From J061 sp003695725 [NCBI: Candidatus Schekmanbacteria bacterium] (GTDB lineage: Bacteria; Schekmanbacteria; GWA2-38-11): DNA of 11,114 nucleotides. The notes beneath the pieces were generated by a model. It saw nothing but the letters and a program-made list of their open reading frames with translations, searched no databases and had not been told where the DNA came from. Numbering within the stretch: the stretch's first letter is position 1; every line of letters starts with the position of its first letter. This document shows, piece by piece, positions 1-11,075 of the stretch. Both the position numbers and the translations under genes were made by a program. The stretch spans positions 1-11,114 of the forward strand of contig RFHX01000250.1 of NCBI GenBank assembly GCA_003695725.1. The letters run 5' to 3'.

Positions 1-464
1 GGAAGAACTATTATGAACCTATTGTTTTTAACATAGAATTTGTTGTAATTTTTTGTGTAATCTTTTAATGATTCTCTTATCTTCTCCTTGAAAAAATCCA
101 AATTCATTCCCTGATTTAATGGAATCAAGGGCTTGAAGATTATTTTTTCACCTCTAACAGCAAATATATAGGAAACAGACTTGAATTTTTGAAAATACGC
201 TGATACAAATTTCAAATAATCATCATTGGAAGAAAAATCTACCCAGCCATTTCTATAAAGAACATTCATAAGTTCAATATTCCGGCTCAATGAAAAAAAA
301 TACTTCTCAATAGCGCGGGATACTTGCTCAGCAATTTGAAGTTTTTGCTCTCCATATCGTTCGACCAAATCCTTTTCCAATGACGATTGAAGCTTTATTG
401 AAAAGAAGAAAAAGGCGGGAATTATAATCAGAAAGAGAACAACAGGAACGATATTCTTCTTCAT
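1..464 (-). CDS. Membrane-anchored sensor protein, N-terminal part (partial, runs off the window)
   Basis: An open frame of 154 codons begins at 464 and stays open to the window edge. It starts MKKNIVPVVLFLIIIPAFFF, one strong membrane helix (about residues 4-23) behind a short Lys-rich cytoplasmic tip. About 130 polar, helix-rich residues follow, including an EQVSRAIEKYFFSLSRNIEL segment. A helix followed by a long amphipathic helix and a mixed alpha/beta region is the usual start of Cache-type periplasmic sensor domains in histidine kinases, chemoreceptors and diguanylate cyclases. The output domain is outside the window, so the class is not known. The start is supported by GAGG followed by an A-run ahead of the ATG; another ATG at 480 is out of frame. 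It lies 69 bp after the nonahaem gene on the same strand with no visible terminator between, so it may be co-transcribed and could regulate the respiratory genes, which is inference. Confidence 0.7.
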   Translation of the reverse strand, partial: MKKNIVPVVLFLIIIPAFFFFSIKLQSSLEKDLVERYGEQKLQIAEQVSRAIEKYFFSLSRNIELMNVLYRNGWVDFSSNDDYLKFVSAYFQKFKSVSYIFAVRGEKIIFKPLIPLNQGMNLDFFKEKIRESLKDYTKNYNKFYVKNNRFIIVL

Positions 465-496: not shown

Positions 497-524
497 ATAT
501 GACCTTTTATGTCATTTTTGTCAA
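497..524 (-). promoter_or_regulatory. Weak candidate promoter for the sensor gene
   Basis: On the minus strand TTGACA (519-524) is followed after 16 nt by TCATAT (497-502), a perfect -35 with a poor -10 box. The spacer overlaps a small inverted repeat, TGAC-7 nt-GTCA (500-514). The spacer region between the two genes is AT-rich and has no GC-rich hairpin, so read-through from the upstream operon is equally possible. Confidence 0.25.
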
Positions 525-533
525 TATTTTTCT

Positions 534-1940
534 TTATCTTATGTCAGCACCGGGAACATCACTGCCGGTCAGATTCTTGTAGGAAAGTTGAAGAAGTTTG
601 ACTGCATAACCTGCATTATGAACACCGTGACTTTTGTCATTATTGACAAAAAGCCAGTTGAAGGCGGCTCTTTTTTCATTATCAGTGGCTGAAGATGAGA
701 ACTTGAAAAATGTGCGTCCAAAAGAATCAGTATCTTCAGTTACATTGCCGGATTCAAGTATTTTGCTTTTTAAAAGCGTTAATAATCCATCGACTTCTGA
801 TTGAATTCCTTCTGTGCTTCCATCACCGTCATAGTCTCCTCTTGCAGTCCTATCAAAAGAAGTCAGACCTGAGTGGCATTGTCCGCAGGCACTGAGAAGC
901 TCATTTCCATCATCATCTGAGACCATAAATGTATGGCTTCCAATGGTATTATGCCCATCTTCGCCACTTGAGGGCGTACTATATCCATGACAGGTCAAAC
1001 ATTTGTCTGCAAATGTTGAATGGAAAGAATTGTCAATTGTTTCACCAAAATCATAGCCGCCTGTACCAACCAAAAGCTGCGCTTGGTTATGTGCAGGCAC
1101 CTCTCCTGAATCCACTGCTTTGTCAACATCCTCAATCTGGTCATTATGGCAGGTAAAACATATTGCGGCATTCTCGGCAGCATATTTGACACCGCTTCCC
1201 GGAAGAGTCGCATTGCCGGTAGTTCTTAGTTGATATTTATTTTTGCTGCTGTGGGGATCATGACATCCCACACAGGTAATAGGATTTGACGCTCGCTTAA
1301 TGGACACTGATCCTTTGTAGTAAATTGCATCGACACTATGGCACTCGAGACAGCTGTCTTCTGACTCTTTGTGTCCCTTTAATGTCTTCAGAGATTTAGA
1401 ATGTTTGGAATTGACCCATTGGTCATATTGACCCTTCGACTGCGAACCGGAAATTGTTTTCGTATGACATTTGCCGCAAGTAGTTGCTTGTAAAGAAAGA
1501 AGAGTTTGCTTGAATTGAATCTTTCTTGCACTTGAGCGGCTTGTATAATGAGGAGAATAACGGCCTGCTGCTTTATGGCAGGATTCACAACCTACATTTT
1601 CTAATCCCTTTTCAGGATTCTCATCATATCCGCCATTTTTGATCTTTTTATCATAACCAGTTGTATGGCACTGCAAGCAGGTTTTATTATTTTTGCTTAT
1701 ATCAGAAAATGCTGAAGCATGTTTTGTTTTCTTCCATTCATCACCTTTACTTTCGTGGCAATGTTTACAGCGATTGCTTCCTATATATTTTCTACCCAAG
1801 TAGGGAGGACTTTTAACTTTAGTTTCATCTGAACTGCTTGTACTTCCGCCTCCTCCACCACCACAGGCGGTTAAGAAAAAAGTCGAACAAAGGAGCATTA
1901 AGAAAAATAATCTAACTGCAATAAATGTTTTTTTAATCAT
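534..1940 (-). CDS. Nonahaem c-type cytochrome lipoprotein, probably outer-membrane or surface
   Basis: The 468-residue protein has a lipoprotein signal peptide ending in the lipobox LTAC (lipidated Cys26) and a Gly/Ser-rich linker. There is no Asp at +2, which fits sorting to the outer membrane. Nine CxxCH motifs begin at residues 58, 88, 118, 155, 197, 223, 261, 314 and 352. The first region (YIGSNRCKHCHESKGDEW) resembles the cytochrome c554-type domain. The C-terminal helix with NWLFVNNDKSHGVHNAGYA resembles a conserved tail of NrfA/octahaem/OmcS-like multihaem cytochromes in which His of GVHN serves as a distal haem ligand. No CxxCK catalytic haem is present, so a nitrite reductase role is unlikely. 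It follows the dodecahaem gene by 11 bp and has a strong AGGTGA ribosome site. Likely the outermost electron carrier or a partner of the barrel; its terminal acceptor or donor cannot be read from the sequence. Confidence 0.88.
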   Translation of the reverse strand: MIKKTFIAVRLFFLMLLCSTFFLTACGGGGGGSTSSSDETKVKSPPYLGRKYIGSNRCKHCHESKGDEWKKTKHASAFSDISKNNKTCLQCHTTGYDKKIKNGGYDENPEKGLENVGCESCHKAAGRYSPHYTSRSSARKIQFKQTLLSLQATTCGKCHTKTISGSQSKGQYDQWVNSKHSKSLKTLKGHKESEDSCLECHSVDAIYYKGSVSIKRASNPITCVGCHDPHSSKNKYQLRTTGNATLPGSGVKYAAENAAICFTCHNDQIEDVDKAVDSGEVPAHNQAQLLVGTGGYDFGETIDNSFHSTFADKCLTCHGYSTPSSGEDGHNTIGSHTFMVSDDDGNELLSACGQCHSGLTSFDRTARGDYDGDGSTEGIQSEVDGLLTLLKSKILESGNVTEDTDSFGRTFFKFSSSATDNEKRAAFNWLFVNNDKSHGVHNAGYAVKLLQLSYKNLTGSDVPGADIR

Positions 1941-1951
1941 TTCACCTTTTT

Positions 1952-2875
1952 TTATTTAACAAGCTTTTTAAGATTTATAGTATGACAAACACCACAAAAA
2001 TCTTTCTTATGGCAAACAAGACAGGATCTTGCATTTCTCTTTGCCACTACTCTGTGATTCGGCACCCAATTAGGCTCAAAATGAGTTGTAGGTTTCTGCT
2101 GATGACAGCGACTGCAGAAATCTGCCTGATGGCATACAGCACATTTATCTCTATTCTGAGTTGCATATCTTCCATGTATATCCTGCTTCCATGACAAAGT
2201 ATGTGAAGAAGGTTTATTCTTCAAGTGACAGTCCTGACATTTGGATGTCTGATGGCAAAGAATACATTTTTTCTCATTTCCCTCAATCTTATTTCTATGA
2301 AGTGTCTTCCATGAAAGGTCATGGGAAATAGAAAGTTCATTATCGATTGGCTTTCTATTTTCCCGAATTTCTGAATGACATTTACTACAATTTGTCTCTT
2401 TTTCATTATGACATTCAAAACATTTCTCCATCTTTGGAATATCAGCAAAGGAAACTTTTTCACGGTTTATAATTTCAGGATGGCATTGTTCACATTCAGT
2501 TCCTCTATCTGTATGATTCTTGTGAGAAAAGATGAGATCTTTCGGCGCTAACTTGACAAACTTGACAAATACCTTTCTATCATCTCTCGTATGACATTTA
2601 TTACATTCTGTTGATTCAATCTTTCCTTCTTCTATGTCATGGCACTGAGAACATTCTTCATGGGTTGGAAGTTTCATTTTCTGTCCATTGACATCAGTCA
2701 TATGGCAATCACTGCACTCTGCCCCAACTTCACCATCAGGGTTGGTATGAAAGCTATGAGGGAAAATTAGTCCCGAATCTTCCTCATTGCAGGCAGAAAA
2801 AAAGCTAACGAAACACAGAAGCAGAATAGATAAGCAAAGAGCTGCAACACTGTATTTTTTCTTTTCCATCACCAT
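1952..2875 (-). CDS. Dodecahaem c-type cytochrome
   Basis: The 307-residue protein carries twelve CxxCH motifs (Cys at 54, 75, 91, 128, 152, 163, 204, 213, 245, 254, 285, 294), about one haem per 26 residues, and many spare His residues for bis-His ligation. The N-terminal half (36-167) has cytochrome c7/c3-like units such as FPHSFH and FSHKNH followed by CxxCH. Residues 184-298 are three tandem modules of about 40 residues, each His-x3/4-Trp, His, then CxxCH-x4-CxxCH. The signal sequence ends FFSAC at Cys29, a possible lipobox although Phe at -3 is atypical, so it may be a lipoprotein or simply membrane-anchored. Two close ATGs (2875 and 2869) are both possible; neither has a well-placed ribosome site. 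It sits 20 bp after the porin gene and 11 bp before the nonahaem gene, suggesting it is the periplasmic or in-barrel wire of a porin-cytochrome conduit, analogous in role to OmaB or MtrA but not clearly homologous. Confidence 0.87.
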   Translation of the reverse strand: MVMEKKKYSVAALCLSILLLCFVSFFSACNEEDSGLIFPHSFHTNPDGEVGAECSDCHMTDVNGQKMKLPTHEECSQCHDIEEGKIESTECNKCHTRDDRKVFVKFVKLAPKDLIFSHKNHTDRGTECEQCHPEIINREKVSFADIPKMEKCFECHNEKETNCSKCHSEIRENRKPIDNELSISHDLSWKTLHRNKIEGNEKKCILCHQTSKCQDCHLKNKPSSHTLSWKQDIHGRYATQNRDKCAVCHQADFCSRCHQQKPTTHFEPNWVPNHRVVAKRNARSCLVCHKKDFCGVCHTINLKKLVK

Positions 2876-2895
2876 AAAATTCTAAAATTCTCCGA

Positions 2896-4251
2896 CTAAA
2901 AGTTAAATTCAAGCTCTACTCTAACACCCTGCAAATAATCAAGTTTTGAGAAAGGAACTGCAAGCTCATCATCTTCTTCATAAGAGTATGCAACAAGATA
3001 ACTTATCCTCTTAGTAACTTCGCCTCTAATCTCTGTTGAAAAGCCATATGTCTGATAAACATTGCGGTTATAATCATAAAACCTATAAAATGTGCCTGCT
3101 GAAACTGAAATATTGTTGCCTAACATCTGTGAATATTGTCCTCTAACTTCATTCGATTCAGTCTCAAATCTCTTTGAACTTCTTTCATCCTTATAATGAC
3201 GCCATTCTACAAATATGTCGTTGCCTTCAAGCATTATATCCCTGCAATTCAAACCGGCAGTAAATTCAAGAAAATCTGAATTGTATTGATCGCCTTCATT
3301 ATTGTTCAAAAGGTCATGAATAGTTAAAGAAGCTTCCAAGGCAAATTTTTTAAAAAGGGGCTGGTTCCATAAAATCGATAATTCCTCATATGGATCCAAG
3401 TCACCGATATTCAAACGGGCAACATCATATCCTTCCTTTCCCCTGTTGGATGAAGATGTATAATCAAAATCATAGTCATCGGCATTACTGCCTCCCAACA
3501 ATCTAAAATATGAAATCTTTATATTCGATGATAATTTTGGGAAGAAATAATCAAATTCTGCGCTCACATTCCTTGGGTCGTTATTTATGAGTGCATATTT
3601 CAGTGATAGGTCAAGATTGCGCGTTACATTCTGATGAAAAGCAAAGTCGTAACTAAAATCAAGATACTTGACAAAGCGTGCTTCAAAGAGGGTTTTTTCA
3701 TTTATTGTCAAATCAAAGTTTCCACCCCAAATACCCTTTTTTCTCGGATGGTATCTGAGACTCACTCTTCGTCCGCCAAAGAGGGATAAGTTGAAAAGAT
3801 TGCTTTTATTGAAATCAATAGAGGCACCATCGAAATGTGCCAATTCTGCACCATAAAAATACTGTCTTCCTATCTTCGAATCAAATATGCCTAAAACATT
3901 TTTAAAATTAGCCCAAATACTATAAATATCTGAAATCCTATCATCACCGCTGTAAGTATCGCGCACATCACGAAAATAGTCCTTTATCCCTGTGCCATCT
4001 ATATCGCGCTCTATTCTTCCATTTGCATAGGTTTCAAGATTTTCTAGCCCATAACCTTCACTCTTAAAAGTAATGTATTGAAAAAAATCGTGGTCAACAT
4101 CGTTAGTCCTAATATCCTTGAATCGGGCTGAACGGAAATCATAGGCGCTTTTTAGATTGAGACTGAAGCTTTTGGCAAAACTCAGATACGGCAGAAGCGA
4201 AAAAGATAAAATTAAAGCAAAAATCAAATATATATTTTTTCTATTTAACAT
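2896..4251 (-). CDS. Outer-membrane beta-barrel, porin-like (candidate conduit barrel)
   Basis: The 451-residue protein has a classical signal peptide (MLNRKN, hydrophobic 7-25, cleavage after SFA at 26). It then consists of many short alternating polar/hydrophobic stretches rich in Tyr, Phe and Asn, separated by charged loops, and ends in ELEFNF with a terminal Phe. These are hallmarks of a BAM-assembled outer-membrane barrel. No CxxCH is present. A segment with IGRQYFYG (127-134) and HFDGASIDF (139-147) resembles a shared element of uncharacterised proteobacterial porins. It is much shorter than MtrB/PioB and nearer the size of the Geobacter OmbB-type barrels, but no family can be assigned with certainty. 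Position immediately before two large multihaem cytochromes suggests it houses or docks one of them across the outer membrane. An ordinary substrate porin is the alternative. No clear ribosome site is seen before ATG 4251. Confidence 0.8.
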   Translation of the reverse strand: MLNRKNIYLIFALILSFSLLPYLSFAKSFSLNLKSAYDFRSARFKDIRTNDVDHDFFQYITFKSEGYGLENLETYANGRIERDIDGTGIKDYFRDVRDTYSGDDRISDIYSIWANFKNVLGIFDSKIGRQYFYGAELAHFDGASIDFNKSNLFNLSLFGGRRVSLRYHPRKKGIWGGNFDLTINEKTLFEARFVKYLDFSYDFAFHQNVTRNLDLSLKYALINNDPRNVSAEFDYFFPKLSSNIKISYFRLLGGSNADDYDFDYTSSSNRGKEGYDVARLNIGDLDPYEELSILWNQPLFKKFALEASLTIHDLLNNNEGDQYNSDFLEFTAGLNCRDIMLEGNDIFVEWRHYKDERSSKRFETESNEVRGQYSQMLGNNISVSAGTFYRFYDYNRNVYQTYGFSTEIRGEVTKRISYLVAYSYEEDDELAVPFSKLDYLQGVRVELEFNF

Positions 4252-4288
4252 TTTTAACTGAACAAAAAAAATTTTGGAATTTTAATTT

Positions 4289-4318
4289 TTTATAAACTGA
4301 AAACTTTTTTATTGTAAA
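4289..4318 (-). promoter_or_regulatory. Candidate internal promoter ahead of the porin gene
   Basis: On the minus strand TTTACA (4313-4318) and TATAAA (4289-4294) are separated by 18 nt, each one base from the sigma-70 consensus, in the only long gap (97 bp) inside the gene run. The sequence here is very AT-rich, so a chance match is a real possibility. If active it would let the barrel and the two large cytochromes be expressed separately from the inner-membrane genes. Confidence 0.35.
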
Positions 4319-4348
4319 GAAAAAAAATAAGGCAGGCGAAAAAAGGGA

Positions 4349-5566
4349 CTAATGTTTCTTCAAATATTCAACAATATTTCTCAACTCATCAGCATTCATA
4401 AGAGGCCATGAAATTCCTTTTTCCTTCATCTTGTCTCTCATTTGAGGACCATGATTCCACATAGCCCACGCCATATAAATCGAAGAAACTTCTCTTCCGG
4501 GCAAAGGAATTTTTATCTTACCGCTTTCCGGTTTCTTCCCAACAGTATGGCAGATGACACATTTCTTTGCTTCAAATTGTTTCTTGCCCAGATAGGCATT
4601 ACCTCTTGGTTCAACATATTTCAAACTAAAAAGGTAAGCCATCAAATCAGACATCTCTTCTGCTGTAAACCCACGGCTTCCTCTGCCAATAGGTGCACCG
4701 CTTGCAATCATCTGCGGAGCATGATTCCACATCAAGCCTGCAAGCTGTGATATTGTACTGCTCTCTGCATCCTTTTCAATGAGACGGCGTGAAAGGTCGG
4801 GACCTGCCCCTCCGCCTCTTCCGAATATGCTGTGGCAATTGGCACACCCCTTCTTTCTAAATATACTCCTCCCCTTTGAAGGACTACCGGGGCTTAGATA
4901 CTCCTTTTCTGCACTGCCCGCTACTTCCTTTACATATGCCACAAGGTCAACCATTTCACTTCCTCTAAAAACAGGCCATCTAATTCCGGCATCTCTCATT
5001 GCACTTTTCATACCTGCGGCATGATTGAGCATCAAAGATGCCCATGCTATTGGACTCGAATACCGTCCCCAAGTAGTCAATTCAGGACCAATTCTTCCTC
5101 CTTTCCCTCTCAAAGTATGGCATTCTCCACATTTTTTTTCTCTAAAAACCTTTTCTCCCTTCGATGAATTGCCTATTTCTATGTTAGAGCGCATAAAAAC
5201 CAAAAAAGCAAAGATGTCTGACATCTCTTTCTGCGAAATACTTTCAGTTGCGGCTTTCTTCAATATTCTATGTTCCAGCATTATTGGAGCATGATTCCAC
5301 ATTCCTGCTGCAAGAGCACTAACTGAAATATCAGCTCGCCTTCCTCTAACTGTGCCCAACTCAGGACCTTCCTTTCCACCTTCACCCCAAACGGAATGGC
5401 AAGCGATACATCCCTTTGTATAAAAAGCATCCCATCCTGCTGAGGGTTCGCCTTTCAATATTACAGTTTCAGCATACAAAAGGGATGAGAAGGAAAGAAT
5501 GAGTAGAAATAAAAAAATCCTCAAACTTCTTTGTCCAATTTTCTTCTGCATTTTCATCTCTATCAT
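4349..5566 (-). CDS. Tetrahaem cytochrome made of four tandem monohaem class I-like domains
   Basis: Four CxxCH motifs (Cys53, 146, 241, 336) recur every 93-95 residues, each preceded by a G-x3-F-x3-KxC element and, in the first three, followed by a Gly-rich G-x-GPEL/GPDL segment typical of class I cytochrome c. Each domain also carries a variant of MWNHxPxM (at 89, 179, 279, 369), MLNHAAGM in the second. Its terminal Met (96, 186, 286, 376) or its His is a candidate second haem ligand. Each repeat ends in an amphipathic helix of the xSDxxAYL type. A signal peptide ends near LLYA (about 32), so the protein is periplasmic or membrane-anchored. Three in-frame ATGs lie at the start (5566, 5557, 5551); the third has AGAG at a suitable distance, making 5551 (MQKKIG) the most likely start. 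Nine bp separate it from the small membrane gene. Likely an electron shuttle between the inner-membrane complex and the outer-membrane cytochromes. Confidence 0.85.
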   Translation of the reverse strand: MIEMKMQKKIGQRSLRIFLFLLILSFSSLLYAETVILKGEPSAGWDAFYTKGCIACHSVWGEGGKEGPELGTVRGRRADISVSALAAGMWNHAPIMLEHRILKKAATESISQKEMSDIFAFLVFMRSNIEIGNSSKGEKVFREKKCGECHTLRGKGGRIGPELTTWGRYSSPIAWASLMLNHAAGMKSAMRDAGIRWPVFRGSEMVDLVAYVKEVAGSAEKEYLSPGSPSKGRSIFRKKGCANCHSIFGRGGGAGPDLSRRLIEKDAESSTISQLAGLMWNHAPQMIASGAPIGRGSRGFTAEEMSDLMAYLFSLKYVEPRGNAYLGKKQFEAKKCVICHTVGKKPESGKIKIPLPGREVSSIYMAWAMWNHGPQMRDKMKEKGISWPLMNADELRNIVEYLKKH

Positions 5567-5575
5567 AAATGAAAT

Positions 5576-5821
5576 TTATTCACTTTTATCTTTAGAAATG
5601 CCAAAATAGATAGTGCTTACGACAAGCCCCAAAATGATAAACAGGGGTATGGCTACCATTCCAATTATTTTAGCAAATGGCATTGCCGGGTCCTGCCACT
5701 CCTTTGCAAAAAAATAACCATTCAAGACAAAAGCTATTATCCCGCTTACAAAAAGCCACATAAAGATGAGTATCAAAAATTGGCATATCTTTGCGATTGT
5801 TTCTATCTTCTTATCATCCAT
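5576..5821 (-). CDS. Small two-helix membrane protein, unrecognised
   Basis: The 81-residue protein has two predicted membrane helices (about 11-36 and 51-74) linked by a short loop with NGYFFAKEWQDP, and charged ends (MDDKKIE and SKDKSE). It has no cysteine motif; its only Cys, at 13, lies in the first helix. A clear ribosome site AGAGGTG (5829-5835) sits 7 nt before the ATG, and the gene lies between the NrfD-like subunit (20 bp) and the tetrahaem cytochrome (9 bp), so it is very probably a real translated member of the operon. I do not recognise a family. By position it may be an accessory subunit stabilising the membrane complex, in the way alternative complex III has small membrane subunits, but this is inference only. 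Confidence 0.75.
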   Translation of the reverse strand: MDDKKIETIAKICQFLILIFMWLFVSGIIAFVLNGYFFAKEWQDPAMPFAKIIGMVAIPLFIILGLVVSTIYFGISKDKSE

Positions 5822-5828
5822 ACAAAAA

Positions 5829-5835
5829 CACCTCT
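5829..5835 (-). promoter_or_regulatory. Ribosome binding site of the 81-residue gene
   Basis: AGAGGTG on the minus strand, 7 nt ahead of ATG 5821. This is the main support that the short gene is translated. Confidence 0.65.
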
Positions 5836-5841
5836 AAAATG

Positions 5842-7197
5842 CTAACTTTTTGCTTCGCCTTTTTCAAAATGAGGCACATAGCTGTCAACCCTCTCTCTTA
5901 CTTCTTCGGCACCTTTTTCTCTTCCTTCCTTGATCTCCCAAATCGAAATCATTGGAAAAAATTTCGTGAAGAGCACATATAGAAGAAGAAAGACAGCAAA
6001 GGAGCCTGCAAGCTCTGAAAATTCTACCCAAGTAGGAAAGTACCACCCTCTATCATAGGGAAGACGAGGATTGACCAAAGTTGGAACTATAATACAAAAT
6101 CTCTCAAGCCACATACCAATAGTCACGGAAACAGAAGCGATTACTGTGCCTGTTATTGTTCTTGTTTTGCTGTTGCAAAGTATTGCAAAAGGGATAATGA
6201 AGCAGGTTAAAACCATTCCCCAAAAGGGAGCGGCATAACGGCCATTGAATTTCTCCCAAAAGACTGCCATATGGGAAGGTTCTGCGCCATAATAGGTTGT
6301 AAGATATTCACAAAAAGTAAAATAGAACCACAGAAGCGTCATAACAAGAAGAAGAATTCCCATATATTCAAAATGGATTTTTCTGAAATATGCCTCGAGA
6401 TTGAATGCCTTTCGCAGAATCGCCATTCCAATAATCAGCGCCGCAATGCCTGAAAAAATTGCTCCTGCAACAAAATAGGGACCAAATATCGTGCTGTGCC
6501 ACATTGGCTGTACTGTCATTGCAAAAACATAAGAAATAACAGTATGCACTGAAACGGCTATAGGTATAACAAGAATTGCCATTATAGATATCAGCCTTTC
6601 AAGAATCCGCCACTGTCTTTCAGTGCCCTTCCACCCCATTGCAAGAATGGTATAAAAAAGGCGGAATTTCTTCGTCTTATCCCGTATTATTGCAATATCA
6701 GGTATCAGTGGAATATAGAGATAAATAGAGCTTGCTGTAAGGTAGGTCGAAATACTCACAAAATCCCATATGAGCGGTGATTGAAATCTGCCGTAGATTA
6801 CGGGATTCATCAATCTGTCAGGACGTCCGAGGTCAACAATTACATTCCCAAGACCGATGAATAAGACCATTACCGTTATAACCTCTGCCGACCTTGTTAT
6901 CGCACGCCTCCACTCAGCCTGAGCGATTCTCAATATTGCTGAAATTAAGGTCCCTGCATGACTGATACCAATAAAAAATACGAAATTTGTAATATAAACG
7001 CCCCAAAATGTTGGACGGTTCATACCAGTAACACCAAGTCCCCACCTCAACTGGCAAATATAAGCAAAGGCAGCCCAAGCAATCACTGCAAGTAAAATTC
7101 CTACGGTTATATAAAAGCCCTTCCCCGTATTTATGACAGGTTCAAGAAGTATGTCATCAGGATCTTTAAATTTAGATTTCAAATTTTCTTCCGCCAT
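5842..7197 (-). CDS. NrfD/ActC/QrcD-type integral membrane quinone-interacting subunit
   Basis: The 451-residue polytopic protein (about ten hydrophobic segments) has the sequence style of the long NrfD branch seen in ActC, QrcD and HmcC. Examples are GVYITNFVFFIGISHAGTLI at 66-85, VDLGRPDRLMNP at 121-132, SVHTVISYVFAMTVQPMWHS at 216-235, and a late GMWLERF then PTWVEFSELAGSF. His80, Asp122 and Arg125 lie in the first two blocks, which in this family line the quinone pocket near the periplasmic face. It carries no haem or FeS centre and would pass electrons between (mena)quinone and the FeS subunit. The protein is longer than PsrC-type homologues, with a charged C-terminal tail (EGREKGAEEV). 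The gene starts 3 bp after the FeS gene with an AAGGTGA ribosome site inside the end of that gene, implying coupled translation. Confidence 0.9.
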   Translation of the reverse strand: MAEENLKSKFKDPDDILLEPVINTGKGFYITVGILLAVIAWAAFAYICQLRWGLGVTGMNRPTFWGVYITNFVFFIGISHAGTLISAILRIAQAEWRRAITRSAEVITVMVLFIGLGNVIVDLGRPDRLMNPVIYGRFQSPLIWDFVSISTYLTASSIYLYIPLIPDIAIIRDKTKKFRLFYTILAMGWKGTERQWRILERLISIMAILVIPIAVSVHTVISYVFAMTVQPMWHSTIFGPYFVAGAIFSGIAALIIGMAILRKAFNLEAYFRKIHFEYMGILLLVMTLLWFYFTFCEYLTTYYGAEPSHMAVFWEKFNGRYAAPFWGMVLTCFIIPFAILCNSKTRTITGTVIASVSVTIGMWLERFCIIVPTLVNPRLPYDRGWYFPTWVEFSELAGSFAVFLLLYVLFTKFFPMISIWEIKEGREKGAEEVRERVDSYVPHFEKGEAKS

Positions 7198-7200
7198 TGC

Positions 7201-7884
7201 TTATTCACCTTCTGATAAATAAAAAACCTTCGGCTCTGTTCCTAAATCTTCAAGAAGCCGTCTCACCCGTCTGCTTTTAGACAAAGTAAAAACTTTATGT
7301 TCAGGGTTATCGAGGTCTCCAAAATAGATTGCTTTTGCCGGACATGCTTCAGCACATGCAGGAATATAATCATCTTCTCTCATTTCACGCTTCTCAAACC
7401 GAGCCCTATCTTTTGCCTTCTGAAGACGATGGTGGCAAAATGTGCATTTCTCAACAACCCCTTTAGGACGCACAGAAACATCAGGATTGAACATTGGCTT
7501 CATCTCATCTGGCCAATCAGGTACAAACCAATTGAAATAACGAACAGTATAAGGGCATGCTGTTGTGCAATAGCGGCATCCAATACACCTCGGGTATACC
7601 TGTCCCACAATCCCGCCTTCCCCTTTAAATGTTGCTCTTACAGGACATACCTTTATGCAAGGCGGCTCATCACAATGGAAGCAAGGCCGTGGAAGAATCT
7701 TCTTTTTTACCTCAGGATAATGTTCTTCCTTTTCAATCAGATAATCCATCCATCTAATCGATCTGCCCTGCCTAAACCATTGAGGATTCGAAGGAGCTAT
7801 ATTATTTTCAGCAATACAAGCCACAGCACAAGCACCACAGCCGTTGCATTTGTCAAGATCGATTACCATTCCCCATCGAGCCAT
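7201..7884 (-). CDS. Four-cluster ferredoxin-type subunit (PsrB/QrcC-like)
   Basis: The 227-residue protein has sixteen cysteines in the order typical of NrfC/PsrB/QrcC subunits: C13-x2-C-x2-C-x3-C23, C68-x2-C-x4-C-x3-C80, C100-x2-C-x2-C-x3-C110 and C147-x2-C-x26-C177-x3-C181. All four sites have four Cys, so four [4Fe-4S] clusters are possible. Qrc and alternative complex III are known to hold one [3Fe-4S] cluster among the four, and nothing here shows a missing ligand. No signal peptide is present; such subunits are carried out with the Tat-exported MopB partner. It would form the wire between the MopB/cytochrome side and the NrfD-like quinone subunit. The start is fixed by AGGTGA overlapping the stop codon of the preceding gene. 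Confidence 0.92.
   Translation of the reverse strand: MARWGMVIDLDKCNGCGACAVACIAENNIAPSNPQWFRQGRSIRWMDYLIEKEEHYPEVKKKILPRPCFHCDEPPCIKVCPVRATFKGEGGIVGQVYPRCIGCRYCTTACPYTVRYFNWFVPDWPDEMKPMFNPDVSVRPKGVVEKCTFCHHRLQKAKDRARFEKREMREDDYIPACAEACPAKAIYFGDLDNPEHKVFTLSKSRRVRRLLEDLGTEPKVFYLSEGE
7205..7211 (-). promoter_or_regulatory. Ribosome binding site of the NrfD-like gene inside the FeS gene
   Basis: AAGGTGA lies within the last codons of the FeS gene, 7 nt before ATG 7197. The arrangement favours translational coupling and fixed stoichiometry of the two subunits. Confidence 0.6.
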
Positions 7885-7887
7885 ATT

Positions 7888-7893
7888 TCACCT
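7888..7893 (-). promoter_or_regulatory. Ribosome binding site of the FeS gene overlapping the upstream stop codon
   Basis: AGGTGA shares bases with the TAG stop (7892-7894) of the molybdopterin-family gene and lies 3 nt before ATG 7884, a coupling arrangement. Confidence 0.6.
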
Positions 7894-10345
7894 ATGCCTT
7901 ATAAATTTTAACCATTGTCCTATCAGGGAGTAAAACCCCTGACAAAGGGTCTCTTTCTTCAATCATAACATCAACAGCATTACTCCCAATGCCTGATGAC
8001 CACTCGCCATTCCCTTTATGTCCCAAACCTGCCGGGATAGCAATACTTTCAGGATGTATTCCCTCTGAAATAGAAACAATCGCCCTTATTCTTCCTTTTG
8101 ATGATTCGATAATGACATATTCCCCATCTTTCAAATTCATCTTCTTTGCTGTTTCAGGGTTAATTTCCACCCAAGTTTCCCAGCGATCAGAAATTACTGA
8201 AGTTGCATTGTCCATCAACCAAGGAGAATTTGGCTGTGAAAGAGAAGTAAGTGATATGGTTTTGGAAATATGAAGATATAACCCTTCCTTCTCACTGATT
8301 CTTTCAGATATCAAGTCAGGATAAAAGGGATTTACCCTTCCTTCAATAAAACGCGAATACTTAGTTCTAACTTCCTTTTCTTTTGAACCAATGATTTTTT
8401 CAATCTGCGGCTTCAAAGAGGTCGGCATAAATTCCACTTTACCTTTTTTTGGATCAATAATCCCCGGCAATTCATTATAATAAAAAATCGGATCCCACCA
8501 TCCTCCCTTCTCAAGTACCTCTTTAACAAATTCCTGCTTTGTGATTTTTTTAGGAACCTTCCATCCTGCCTTCTCAAGAAGCCGAACCCACCGTCCTTTA
8601 AACTCTTCAGATATTACATCGCCTCGTCCGGCGTCAAAAAGTCCTTCAATTGACCATTCAAGGTATTCCTTTAGATTTTTCCACTGTAGATTTCTTGATA
8701 TTCCTACCGGCATTTTAGAAGAAACTTCAAGTATAACATCCTCTGTTGCCCTGCAATCAACTACTGGAGAAACAACAGGTTTTGATACCGAAAAAACTTG
8801 ATAACCTTCAGATGTATTTACAGCCGCCCCACCCCATTTCTCAAGATAAGTGCAATCGGGAAGTACTAAATCACAAAGAGAGGTTGTCTCATCCATTACA
8901 GAAGAAAAACTCACCTTATATGGAATCTTTTTCAATATTTCTATCCATTCATCTCTTGCCGGTGAGGAATATACCGGATTTGCATCTTTCACTAAGAGAA
9001 GTTTGACCGGATTGGCATTATCTTTGAATTTCGAAATCACTGATGCTGGATTGTTTTCATTGAAACCTTCTGCCCCTGATGACGATTTGTCATTGTTTTC
9101 AAAGGAAGCTTTAGAGACTTCATCCTTTTTAACTTTTGGAATTTGAGTCAATGGAATTTGGTGGGGAAATATCATTCCTCCTTTGGAGCCTATGCTTCCA
9201 CAAAGGAGGTTCAAACTATGCACAGCCATTTGTGTCATTATATCATCACGTCTTCCAATGACAATGGCAGGCCTTGCAGAATAAAGCTCTCTTGCAACAG
9301 TAATTATCTCTTCAGCGCTTACCCCTGTTATTTCTTCAACATCTACAGGGGCATAACCGCTCATAACCCAATACTTGAATCCTCGCCTTATTTTTCCATC
9401 TTTTGACACCTCATCTTCAAATCCTGTGCAGTATTTAGCAACGAAATTATAATCATATAGGTCTTCTCGTATGAGTACATAAGCTATGGAAAGGGCAATG
9501 ATTGCCTCTGTCCCGGGCTTTATTGGAATCCATCTATCAGCGCTGGCTGCCGTCGATGAAAGTCTTGTACCAAAATGAATAAATTTCGTTCTGCCCTCTT
9601 TTCTTTCTCTGCGTGCATATCCGTATGAACTAATCGACTGCATAAGATTTTCACAGCTTTCAAGATAGTCATTTGAAAAAGAGAGGACAATGCCGGAATT
9701 TTTTATATCAAAGGATGGTTTTCTTAAAATCCCCTGCATTAGATAAATTGCATCAAGCTGACATTCATCATCCCAATCATAGGCATCATTGAAAGGAATG
9801 TAATTGGGACTGCCGTATGATTCCATAAAATGGTGATATAATCTCTTCTCCAATATTGAACTTCTTATGCTGTGCAAAAACATAACGCCTGCAGGATTTT
9901 CATTCCTTTGTGAAATCAGCTTGTCCGACAATTCCTTCAAAGCATCATTCCACGAGATAGGGATCCATTTAGCAGAATTGCCACTGCCCTCTCTTCTCAA
10001 AGGGCTTTTGACTCTGTTGGGATTATAAAGGTGATTGATGCCGGCAACACCACGCGGACAGATGCCTCCTCTATTGACAGGATGCAGTGGATTGCCCTCA
10101 ATCTTAACAACTCTTTCACCAATTTTTCTAACATTGATTCCGCAAAAACTTGGACAAAGAGAACAGCTGGTTGTTTCCCATGTTTCAACATCGTAAGGAA
10201 CGATGACTTCTTCATACTGATTCAAAAAATTATGTATTGCCTTATTCGAATTTTTGATTTTTTGGCATCCTGTGACAGCAGCAGCTGAAACAAGCCCTGC
10301 GCCTTTTAAAAAACTTCTTCGATTTATGCCTTTTTTATCTTTCAT
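7892..10345 (-). CDS. Tat-exported molybdopterin-oxidoreductase-family (MopB) subunit, QrcB/PsrA-like
   Basis: The 817-residue protein has a Tat motif RRSFLKG (9-15) and a hydrophobic stretch ending VTGC (24-27), which also fits a lipobox, so a Tat lipoprotein is possible. A [4Fe-4S] site follows: C61-x2-C64-x3-C68-x27-C96, with CPRG after the last Cys. Residues about 110-540 form the molybdopterin oxidoreductase core, including PGTEAIIALSIAYVLIREDL at 277-296. Residues about 690-810 are the dinucleotide-binding domain, with WVEINPETAKKMNLKDGEYV at 725-744 and GHKGNGEWSSGIGSN at 775-789, a form like that of ActB/QrcB relatives. Cys195 in DDECQLDA sits near the usual Mo-ligand position, so cofactor binding cannot be excluded; QrcB and ActB relatives do not bind Mo. 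With the pentahaem, FeS and NrfD-like subunits it would make a Qrc-like quinone:cytochrome c oxidoreductase. A true reductase (sulfur, tetrathionate or arsenic compounds) is the alternative. It follows the pentahaem gene by 6 bp. Confidence 0.88.
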   Translation of the reverse strand: MKDKKGINRRSFLKGAGLVSAAAVTGCQKIKNSNKAIHNFLNQYEEVIVPYDVETWETTSCSLCPSFCGINVRKIGERVVKIEGNPLHPVNRGGICPRGVAGINHLYNPNRVKSPLRREGSGNSAKWIPISWNDALKELSDKLISQRNENPAGVMFLHSIRSSILEKRLYHHFMESYGSPNYIPFNDAYDWDDECQLDAIYLMQGILRKPSFDIKNSGIVLSFSNDYLESCENLMQSISSYGYARRERKEGRTKFIHFGTRLSSTAASADRWIPIKPGTEAIIALSIAYVLIREDLYDYNFVAKYCTGFEDEVSKDGKIRRGFKYWVMSGYAPVDVEEITGVSAEEIITVARELYSARPAIVIGRRDDIMTQMAVHSLNLLCGSIGSKGGMIFPHQIPLTQIPKVKKDEVSKASFENNDKSSSGAEGFNENNPASVISKFKDNANPVKLLLVKDANPVYSSPARDEWIEILKKIPYKVSFSSVMDETTSLCDLVLPDCTYLEKWGGAAVNTSEGYQVFSVSKPVVSPVVDCRATEDVILEVSSKMPVGISRNLQWKNLKEYLEWSIEGLFDAGRGDVISEEFKGRWVRLLEKAGWKVPKKITKQEFVKEVLEKGGWWDPIFYYNELPGIIDPKKGKVEFMPTSLKPQIEKIIGSKEKEVRTKYSRFIEGRVNPFYPDLISERISEKEGLYLHISKTISLTSLSQPNSPWLMDNATSVISDRWETWVEINPETAKKMNLKDGEYVIIESSKGRIRAIVSISEGIHPESIAIPAGLGHKGNGEWSSGIGSNAVDVMIEERDPLSGVLLPDRTMVKIYKA

Positions 10346-10351
10346 AACTTT

Positions 10352-10852
10352 CTATTTATGGCAGTCGATACAGTCCCAAGCCACATTTCTCTTTATATGA
10401 CAATTGATACAGTCTTCCATTACTAAAGTCTTCAATGGTTTTTTTGGAGGTTCTGTCAATTTCCACATTTCCCCATGACACTCGACGCATTCGACTTTTC
10501 CCACTGCAACATGCCTTCTATGAGAAAAAAAGACATGGGAAGGAAGTCTAAATACTCTTTTCCAATGAAGCTCTCCCCCCTTGGAAGCAATGGTTCTAAT
10601 TTTTTCCTCTTCTTTGCTCTCTGTTATTGCATCCTCATGACATTCGAGGCATTTTGAAATTTTAGGAATGCTTGCAAAGGTTTGAGTCTTTACATATATA
10701 TGGCACTCATCACACTCAAGTCCTTGATCTATATGAGCTTTATGGCTGTATTTGATTGGCTGTTCAGGAGCAGAAGAGAAGGAGAAAACTGTAATGCTGC
10801 CAAGAAGTGCGAACAAGAGAATGAATAATGATAAATATATAATCCTTTTCAT
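10352..10852 (-). CDS. Pentahaem c-type cytochrome, QrcA/c7-like, first gene of the operon
   Basis: The 166-residue protein has an N-terminal hydrophobic segment (4-24), a signal peptide or retained anchor, then five CxxCH motifs (Cys47, 68, 122, 148, 161). The elements KYSHKAH (34-40) and FFSHRRH (108-114) precede CxxCH sites in the c7/c3 manner, giving His ligands for bis-His haems. Length and spacing resemble the cytochrome subunits of Qrc (six haems in Desulfovibrio) and alternative complex III, here one haem fewer than Qrc. Its place directly before the MopB, FeS and NrfD-like genes supports the role of periplasmic electron entry or exit module of that complex. The ATG is preceded by AAGGG at 5 nt. 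The protein ends with the last CxxCH plus Lys, so the final haem lies at the very C-terminus. Confidence 0.88.
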   Translation of the reverse strand: MKRIIYLSLFILLFALLGSITVFSFSSAPEQPIKYSHKAHIDQGLECDECHIYVKTQTFASIPKISKCLECHEDAITESKEEEKIRTIASKGGELHWKRVFRLPSHVFFSHRRHVAVGKVECVECHGEMWKLTEPPKKPLKTLVMEDCINCHIKRNVAWDCIDCHK

Positions 10853-11025: not shown

Positions 11026-11075
11026 CTTATACTTTTTCAAGATGAAATATGTCAAGAAAAATTTTAAAAAATTTT
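11026..11075 (-). promoter_or_regulatory. Probable main promoter of the operon with UP-like element
   Basis: On the minus strand TTGACA (11050-11055) is a perfect -35 box, followed after 18 nt by TATAAG (11026-11031), one base from the -10 consensus. Directly upstream, 11057-11075 is composed of alternating A and T runs that resemble an UP element for RNA polymerase alpha subunits. The first gene begins about 165 nt downstream. The 39 bases further upstream (11076-11114) hold nothing I can assign. Confidence 0.55.

Follow-up and report, generated by a model that had tools for sequence, protein, structure and literature searches.

A quinone module adjoining a porin-cytochrome conduit in a Schekmanbacteria genome: a probable route linking quinones with the cell surface

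Does one run of genes in a Candidatus Schekmanbacteria genome encode an entire electron route that links the quinone pool with the cell surface? The question is raised by contig RFHX01000250.1 of the metagenome-assembled genome (MAG) J061 sp003695725 (assembly GCA_003695725.1), which we analyzed in full (11,114 bp, hereafter the window) and which belongs to a 2.77-Mb genome (374 contigs, 97.8% complete). As an initial annotation of the letters had described, nine co-directional open reading frames (ORFs), here called A to I, are present on the minus strand from position 10852 down to 534; a partial tenth ORF, J, follows. The nine genes form two modules, the quinone complex A-F and the porin-cytochrome conduit G-I, each of which is separately conserved and which adjoin in this genome. 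Our best reading, which we hold with moderate confidence, is that the two modules together make up a respiratory path from the quinone pool to the cell surface. This part of the initial annotation is supported; its suggestion of one conserved, self-contained unit is not. In our list of 98 genomes (its own counted) the genome of the window is labeled G000, G001 is from the same family, G002 and G003 are from the same order, and the other genomes are related no more closely than at domain level.

The intergenic gaps from A to J measure 6, 7, 3, 20, 9, 97, 20, 11 and 69 bp. Gaps of mostly 3 to 20 bp had been reported, which is correct for seven gaps within A-I but not for the one between F and G, which at 97 bp is the longest and divides the nine genes into six and three. 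The reported total of 30 CxxCH heme motifs was reproduced (5 in A, 4 in F, 12 in H and 9 in I) and is far above the number in shuffled proteins, given that 200 residue shuffles of the four cytochromes yielded a mean of 0.26 and a maximum of 2. We read an additional CxxCH in the iron-sulfur (FeS) protein C as a probable member of its FeS cysteine set and not as a heme site. Domains assigned by Pfam and NCBIfam were c7, MopB, FeS, NrfD and class-I cytochrome c, and the genes of the quinone module are as follows (E, expectation value; aa, amino acids; PDB, Protein Data Bank; ACIII, alternative complex III).

10352 to 10852, minus strand: A, 5-heme c7-type cytochrome, ActA/QrcA-like, 166 aa; best PDB match 8k9e_A (ActA-type chain of an ACIII entry), E 4e-22
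7892 to 10345, minus strand: B, TAT-type MopB protein, 817 aa, with four FeS Cys and Tyr189 at the molybdenum (Mo)-ligand column; Pfam MopB match and TAT signal
7201 to 7884, minus strand: C, FeS protein, 227 aa, whose 16 Cys suit four clusters; best PDB match the C-terminal part of ActB (6f0k_B 797-1023), E 1.6e-58
5842 to 7197, minus strand: D, NrfD/ActC-like quinone-binding membrane subunit, 451 aa; PF03916, E 4.7e-35, and ActC (6f0k_C), E 3.3e-75
5576 to 5821, minus strand: E, putative membrane protein, 81 aa; small proteins in the corresponding position of G001, G002, G035 and G196 are similar (BLAST)
4349 to 5566, minus strand: F, tetraheme cytochrome of four tandem class-I c domains, 405 aa; PF00034 in four stretches

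By sequence, A, B plus C, and D correspond to ActA, ActB and ActC of ACIII (ActABCDEF), and cytochrome F, which is probably periplasmic, stands in the place of ActE. The order cytochrome, MopB, FeS protein and NrfD is also the gene set of QrcABCD from sulfate reducers, and in NCBIfam A, B and C each score highest with a Qrc model. These matches to ACIII chains bear out the Qrc/ACIII-like complex of the initial annotation, as do the 16 Cys of C and the set of four in B, which would accommodate the up to five FeS clusters that it had proposed. The module was compared across 20 loci, the window included. The order A-B-C-D is found in 17, with the other three cut by contig ends, and an F-like tetraheme gene follows D in 17/20. 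In G001, gene C was checked and confirmed. Two copies of the tetraheme gene are present at some of these loci (L042:10196-12835, L040:13709-16554 and L047:4662-8058). E had no Pfam or NCBIfam family above its cut-off, and BLAST found E-like small proteins at five of the 20 loci, window counted. The module is widespread: homologues of D at E 1e-120 or better occur in 19 of 385 genomes sampled around G094, and D is the sole NrfD match in the G000 genome at E 1e-10.

Neither known complex fits without change, and both plain Qrc and plain ACIII were ruled out by the Qrc scores, which fall below the cut-offs, and by the quinone-site residues. All four subunits score below the curated Qrc cut-offs (bits versus cut-off: QrcA 96.9/180, QrcB 331.9/440, QrcC 320.6/400, QrcD 33.6/570). 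A has 5 hemes whereas QrcA has 6, and B keeps its FeS Cys set whereas QrcB is listed without a cofactor (QrcA and QrcB as given in Table 1 of PMC8076601). In contrast to ACIII, ActB is split into B and C, F is tetraheme where ActE is monoheme, no ActD or ActF was recognized in the run (with one NrfD match in the genome), and B is nearer to ArrA than to ActB: in the PDB sequence search its match to the N-terminal part of ActB was weak (E 4e-16) compared with ArrA (5e-56) and PsrA (4e-40). The quinone site of D differs as well. In D of all 20 loci, Ser164 and Asp169 of the quinone site of R. marinus ActC are kept together with the Glu394-Arg395 pair, which belongs to the P-side ion path of that protein (PMC8076601); His139 is replaced by Asp and Asp253 by Val/Ile (R. 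marinus numbering). The same account lists Asp at the His139 position in QrcD, W. succinogenes PsrC and DsrP, among others (PMC8076601). On sequence grounds, the A-F loci form one coherent subfamily, intermediate between ACIII and Qrc and characterized by a split ActB, a MopB protein lacking the Mo ligand and an Asp quinone site.

The cofactor residues of B bear on its role. The Mo-ligand Cys of ArrA and PsrA aligns with Tyr189 of B, and the same column, in which the residue varies, is without Cys in all 20 MopB rows from the A-F loci; the Cys is present in 6/8 of more distant MopB comparators. The four FeS Cys are retained in 17 of the 20 rows, the exceptions being L047 and L132, which are cut by contig ends, and L128, in which the frame is unaligned at the Cys columns. 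Given that the FeS Cys are kept and that no Cys stands at the Mo-ligand column, B probably serves to relay electrons rather than to turn over a substrate.

The second module consists of three genes.

2896 to 4251, minus strand: G, predicted outer-membrane beta-barrel, 451 aa, 22 predicted strands, no plug; AlphaFold model and generic outer-membrane-protein barrel matches
1952 to 2875, minus strand: H, 12-heme c7-type cytochrome, 307 aa, lipoprotein-like N terminus; 12 CxxCH and Pfam c7
534 to 1940, minus strand: I, 9-heme lipoprotein-like cytochrome, 468 aa, MtrC/F domain II/IV-like and c554-like; PF22113 and PF13435, with an LTAC lipobox read from the sequence

G matched nothing in Pfam or NCBIfam (E 0.01) or among PDB sequences (E 1) and therefore has no match to the MtrB/PioB sequence profile, which we take to be present in Pfam. 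A first model built from four sequences was poor (pLDDT 61.7), and we used instead one built from a 19-row alignment (mean pLDDT 79.3, pTM 0.74), which has 22 strands. Since nothing but signal-like helices precedes the barrel in this model, G appears to be plug-free, and its pore should be wide, as expected of a plug-free barrel of that strand number. In our reading, H is the likely cytochrome partner of the barrel, and I probably takes the surface or outer position. H contains 25.6 residues for each heme, and a low residue-per-heme ratio is linked to wire-like cytochromes in the account of PMC5566968.

The pairing of G with H recurs widely. A four-sequence barrel profile matched 17/386 genomes at E 1e-5 (four source genomes counted), and a 19-sequence profile matched 26/193 genomes around G146 at 1e-8 (several source genomes counted). 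A contig scan with a single barrel sequence gave no match; the alignment-based scan matched Candidatus Schekmanbacteria bacterium GWA2_38_11, whose contig MGDB01000090.1 is identical at 7501/7501 positions to the 7,501-bp barrel contig of G003. We counted as a neighbor any gene with at least three CxxCH on the same strand at a gap of -320 to +400 bp. The gene immediately 3' of the barrel is multiheme in 39 of 42 distinct loci (41/46 rows before filtering), after removal of the duplicates L064 and L114 and of the N-terminal fragments L103:10031-10426 and L104:8374-8814; the 42 include four G377 paralogues and six genomes of family f145, and a weak second barrel match in G134, which has no barrel row in the count, was left out. 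The three exceptions are a barrel at a contig end, one with a 12-heme gene whose start is mis-set upstream, and G003, which is without such a neighbor. All 39 neighbors, the only ones compared, match H at E 1e-5 and have 5 to 14 heme motifs. A further large multiheme gene, often lipoprotein-like, differs from one barrel locus to the next. Given that an H-like multiheme gene follows the barrel so regularly, the sequences identify the G-H(-I) type as a real porin-cytochrome conduit family, in agreement with the porin-cytochrome module first described.

From protein assignments that rest on sequence, we infer every electron-transfer step and docking event as follows. Menaquinol would be oxidized at D, near the periplasmic face, and its electrons would cross the FeS clusters in C and B before they reach the five hemes of A. 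The four-domain tetraheme carrier F would take them from A to H, which would thread through or dock in barrel G and hand them to I at the surface, and I may then reduce an extracellular acceptor, for example Fe(III) or a partner cell. Electrons could also flow inward along the same path. Our estimate leans toward export, with import or flow both ways holding a substantial minority share. If the path is real, it would single out a family of conduits composed of a barrel and a c7-type cytochrome in which the barrel is missed by Pfam and NCBIfam profiles; it would also offer a testable route of extracellular respiration for Schekmanbacteria, here known from MAGs only, and a compact gene set for trial in a laboratory host.

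Whether the two modules work together was addressed by asking how often they meet. A-F and G-I are usually apart in other genomes, are occasionally neighbors, and adjoin independently in one other lineage. That lineage is represented by G094, in which A-B-C-D-F lie on one strand and the genes for the barrel, a 5-heme and a 17-heme cytochrome are convergent with them, 84 bp apart. More broadly, an NrfD gene lies within 10 kb of the barrel in 8/36 barrel genomes (G000, G094, G134, G146, G283, G387, G057 and G010). Without G000, this amounts to 7/35 genomes versus 0.63 expected under random placement (P 1.7e-6), or 5/25 by family (P 2.4e-4). The NrfD gene near the barrel is of the close A-F type in G000 and G094 only.

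Several observations weigh against a joint function, and we collect them here. The order of the nine genes is not conserved, which answers a question posed by the initial annotation: in G001 about 32 kb of one contig separate the end of A-F from the barrel, and in G002 the two modules are on different contigs. The barrel was present in the fetched flank at 2/20 A-F loci (G000 and G094) and absent at the other 18, a separation that comes near to refuting the proposed link and is set against the adjacency in G094 and the excess of NrfD genes near barrels. The figure of 2/20 is a lower bound, because seven of the remaining contigs are shorter than 13 kb. Within family f93 the barrel is beside A-F in G094 alone of six genomes; of the other five loci, three are on contigs that end at or just past F and two carry other genes there. 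The true surprise of the NrfD counts is smaller than the P values, because respiratory genes cluster anyway and the null model places genes randomly. The joint locus in G000 rests on a single MAG contig, and the 97-bp F-G gap with its promoter-like site makes a single transcript less certain. On the side of the quinone module, B is nearer to ArrA and PsrA than to ActB among solved structures, the best NCBIfam model of D is DsrP (below cut-off), a Cys lies a few residues off the Mo-ligand column in the window (Cys195) and in G050, G223 and G239, and the G140 MopB has Ser at that column. A conserved nine-gene unit is ruled out by the separation in G001 and G002 and by the scarcity of barrels at A-F loci. 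No close A-F module was found in G003 (70% complete).

The alternative that survives best, although we consider it unlikely on balance, is that the modules are accidental neighbors. A-F would then be a general quinol:periplasmic cytochrome oxidoreductase serving several acceptors, and G-I would be fed by a general periplasmic pool or by a cytochrome b cluster. The separation just described speaks for it, as do the promoter-like site in the F-G gap, the sensor kinase-like gene that follows G-I in both G000 and G001, and the wider content of the genome, in which a heme-copper oxidase gene adjoins a gene with three CxxCH and a cytochrome b cluster includes 9- and 11-heme cytochromes. With the oxidase and the cytochrome b cluster present, F might feed other acceptors, the oxidase included. 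Against chance adjacency stand the independent meeting of the same modules in G094, the excess of NrfD genes near barrels over random placement, and the position of D as the only NrfD match in its genome. No match to cytochrome bd was found in the G000 genome. That genome has many further multiheme genes, and on its contig C248 25-heme and 16-heme cytochromes are adjacent (L122:7262-10569).

The quinone-to-surface path has a directional sub-case, electron uptake, which is possible and which we regard as doubtful. Here Fe(II), a cathode or a partner cell would donate electrons to the surface cytochromes, and A-D would reduce quinone. By the account in PMC8076601, ACIII oxidizes quinol and Qrc reduces quinone. 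The Qrc models preferred by A, B and C favor uptake, and so does the protonating Asp of D, which is found in QrcD, W. succinogenes PsrC and DsrP where ActC has His. The heme-copper oxidase could serve as a sink; its presence and that of the cytochrome b cluster make oxygen use and electron import possible as well. However, every subunit falls below the Qrc equivalog cut-off, and the Asp does not set the direction, because PsrC also has it yet serves quinol-driven polysulfide reduction. Equally tentative is a stronger form of the path, in which the locus would be one regulated unit, a continuous quinone-to-surface wire assembled from two unnamed classes: an ACIII/Qrc-intermediate oxidoreductase with a split ActB, an Asp quinone site and a tetraheme ActE-like shuttle, and a conduit of a 22-strand barrel and a c7-type cytochrome with up to 14 hemes, found in many bacterial families.

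We consider it very unlikely that G is an ordinary solute porin and that H and I act elsewhere. The structure matches of G are generic outer-membrane barrels, namely OprD/Occ channels, TonB-dependent receptors (333 to 368 residues aligned) and ushers, and the OprD/Occ matches at the top (Z up to 19.5, rmsd 4.1 over 279 residues) would suit such a porin. However, G is predicted to be plug-free with 22 strands, OprD has 18 strands, and the H-like gene directly downstream recurs in nearly all barrel loci. No multiheme-conduit barrel was among the best 50 structure matches listed for G, which excludes nothing. Least probable of all is that B is a catalytic molybdoenzyme, for example an arsenate or polysulfide reductase, and A-F a substrate reductase: ArrA is its best PDB match, yet the Mo-ligand Cys is gone from every row of the clade while the FeS Cys remain, most of the more distant comparators keep the ligand Cys, and A matches ActA-type chains.

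Clusters that join a quinone module to a conduit in one locus have already been published, and the G000 locus is a variant of these. The claim that quinone oxidoreductases are usually kept apart from conduits was therefore too strong. Clusters of mtrCAB that carry cymA or netBCD bring quinol dehydrogenase and porin-cytochrome conduit together, as described in PMC8805035, and R. ferrireducens is described with cymA/mtrH beside mtrABC (PMC6295460); G differs from the former in lacking a Pfam match and hence an MtrB profile match. In the description of PCC3/PCC4, barrel, multiheme cytochromes and an inner-membrane protein are likewise clustered, but the inner-membrane protein has five helices and is cytochrome b-like, in place of the NrfD and MopB proteins here (PMC5566968). 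One MAG is reported with an NrfD complex adjoining a porin-cytochrome conduit (PCC) (PMC10732223). For the quinone module, the nearest likeness by description is cluster 4 of MBNT15 bacterium SHF-111, an ACIII-like cluster discussed under Fe(III) reduction that has ActABCD and a four-heme ActE-like protein; unlike our locus, its description includes no barrel conduit (PMC9386147). For G and H, the likeness is to PCC_1 to 3 of Ca. Manganitrophus, described as a barrel with a 12-heme cytochrome; these porin-dodecaheme complexes come from a Mn(II)-oxidizing Nitrospirota lineage (PMC9040806). Searches for Schekmanbacteria with cytochrome or extracellular electron transfer terms, in a collection that covers few subscription journals, gave no report of the nine-gene locus. 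The G000 locus illustrates that genomes combine quinone modules and outer-membrane conduits in different ways.

Other barrel loci have neighbors of their own. In G377 (L062 and L063), four similar clusters each combine a barrel and a 6-heme cytochrome with an FeS protein and a protein of 953-979 aa. For two of these large proteins BLAST gave a weak MopB match, and by sequence the clusters resemble a conduit that supplies a molybdoenzyme, perhaps one on the cell surface. In G134 (L070:5486-12826), genes for NrfD, an FeS protein and a 4-heme cytochrome are divergent from a set of 1-heme, barrel, 9-heme and 7-heme genes, which we identify from sequence as another quinone module adjoining the barrel family. 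Proteins of 506 aa with six CxxCH lie near the barrel in three f145 genomes (L096:5981-7501, L097:4833-6353 and L099:2275-3795), and we take them to be possible ImcH-like quinol oxidases. Upstream of the barrel in G001 (L035:14136-20000) are a HEAT-repeat protein, a diheme protein with an ethylbenzene-dehydrogenase domain and a MopB-like frame; a G003 protein (L041:5668-7122) resembles the HEAT-repeat protein by eye.

The remaining features of the window concern its possible regulation.

11026 to 11055, minus strand: promoter-like site TTGACA-18-TATAAG upstream of A, a consensus match of 11/12 only
4289 to 4318, minus strand: possible promoter TTTACA-18-TATAAA in the F-G gap, a consensus match of 10/12 only, which by itself does not imply function
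3 to 464, minus strand: J, first part of a sensor kinase-like gene, truncated at the contig end; 30.9% identity over its first 134 aa to G001 L035:8049-10157

Promoter-like matches are common by chance, with 35 found in the window versus 30.4 expected under a somewhat different rule. No terminator-like site was found between F and G. A search for a sigma-54 promoter gave nothing convincing: the best candidates departed from the consensus at 4 positions upstream of A and at 5 in both the F-G and the I-J gap of the window, and at 3 upstream of G in G001. J has no Pfam family match of its own. Its G001 relative is a PAS-HisKA protein with weak Cache matches and one CxxCH in the sensor part, and it is followed by an NtrC-type sigma-54 regulator (L035:6646-8037); this pair might act on the conduit as a heme-based redox switch. 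A palindrome, ATGAC-7-GTCAT, lies between I and J in the window (499-515) and is a possible operator.

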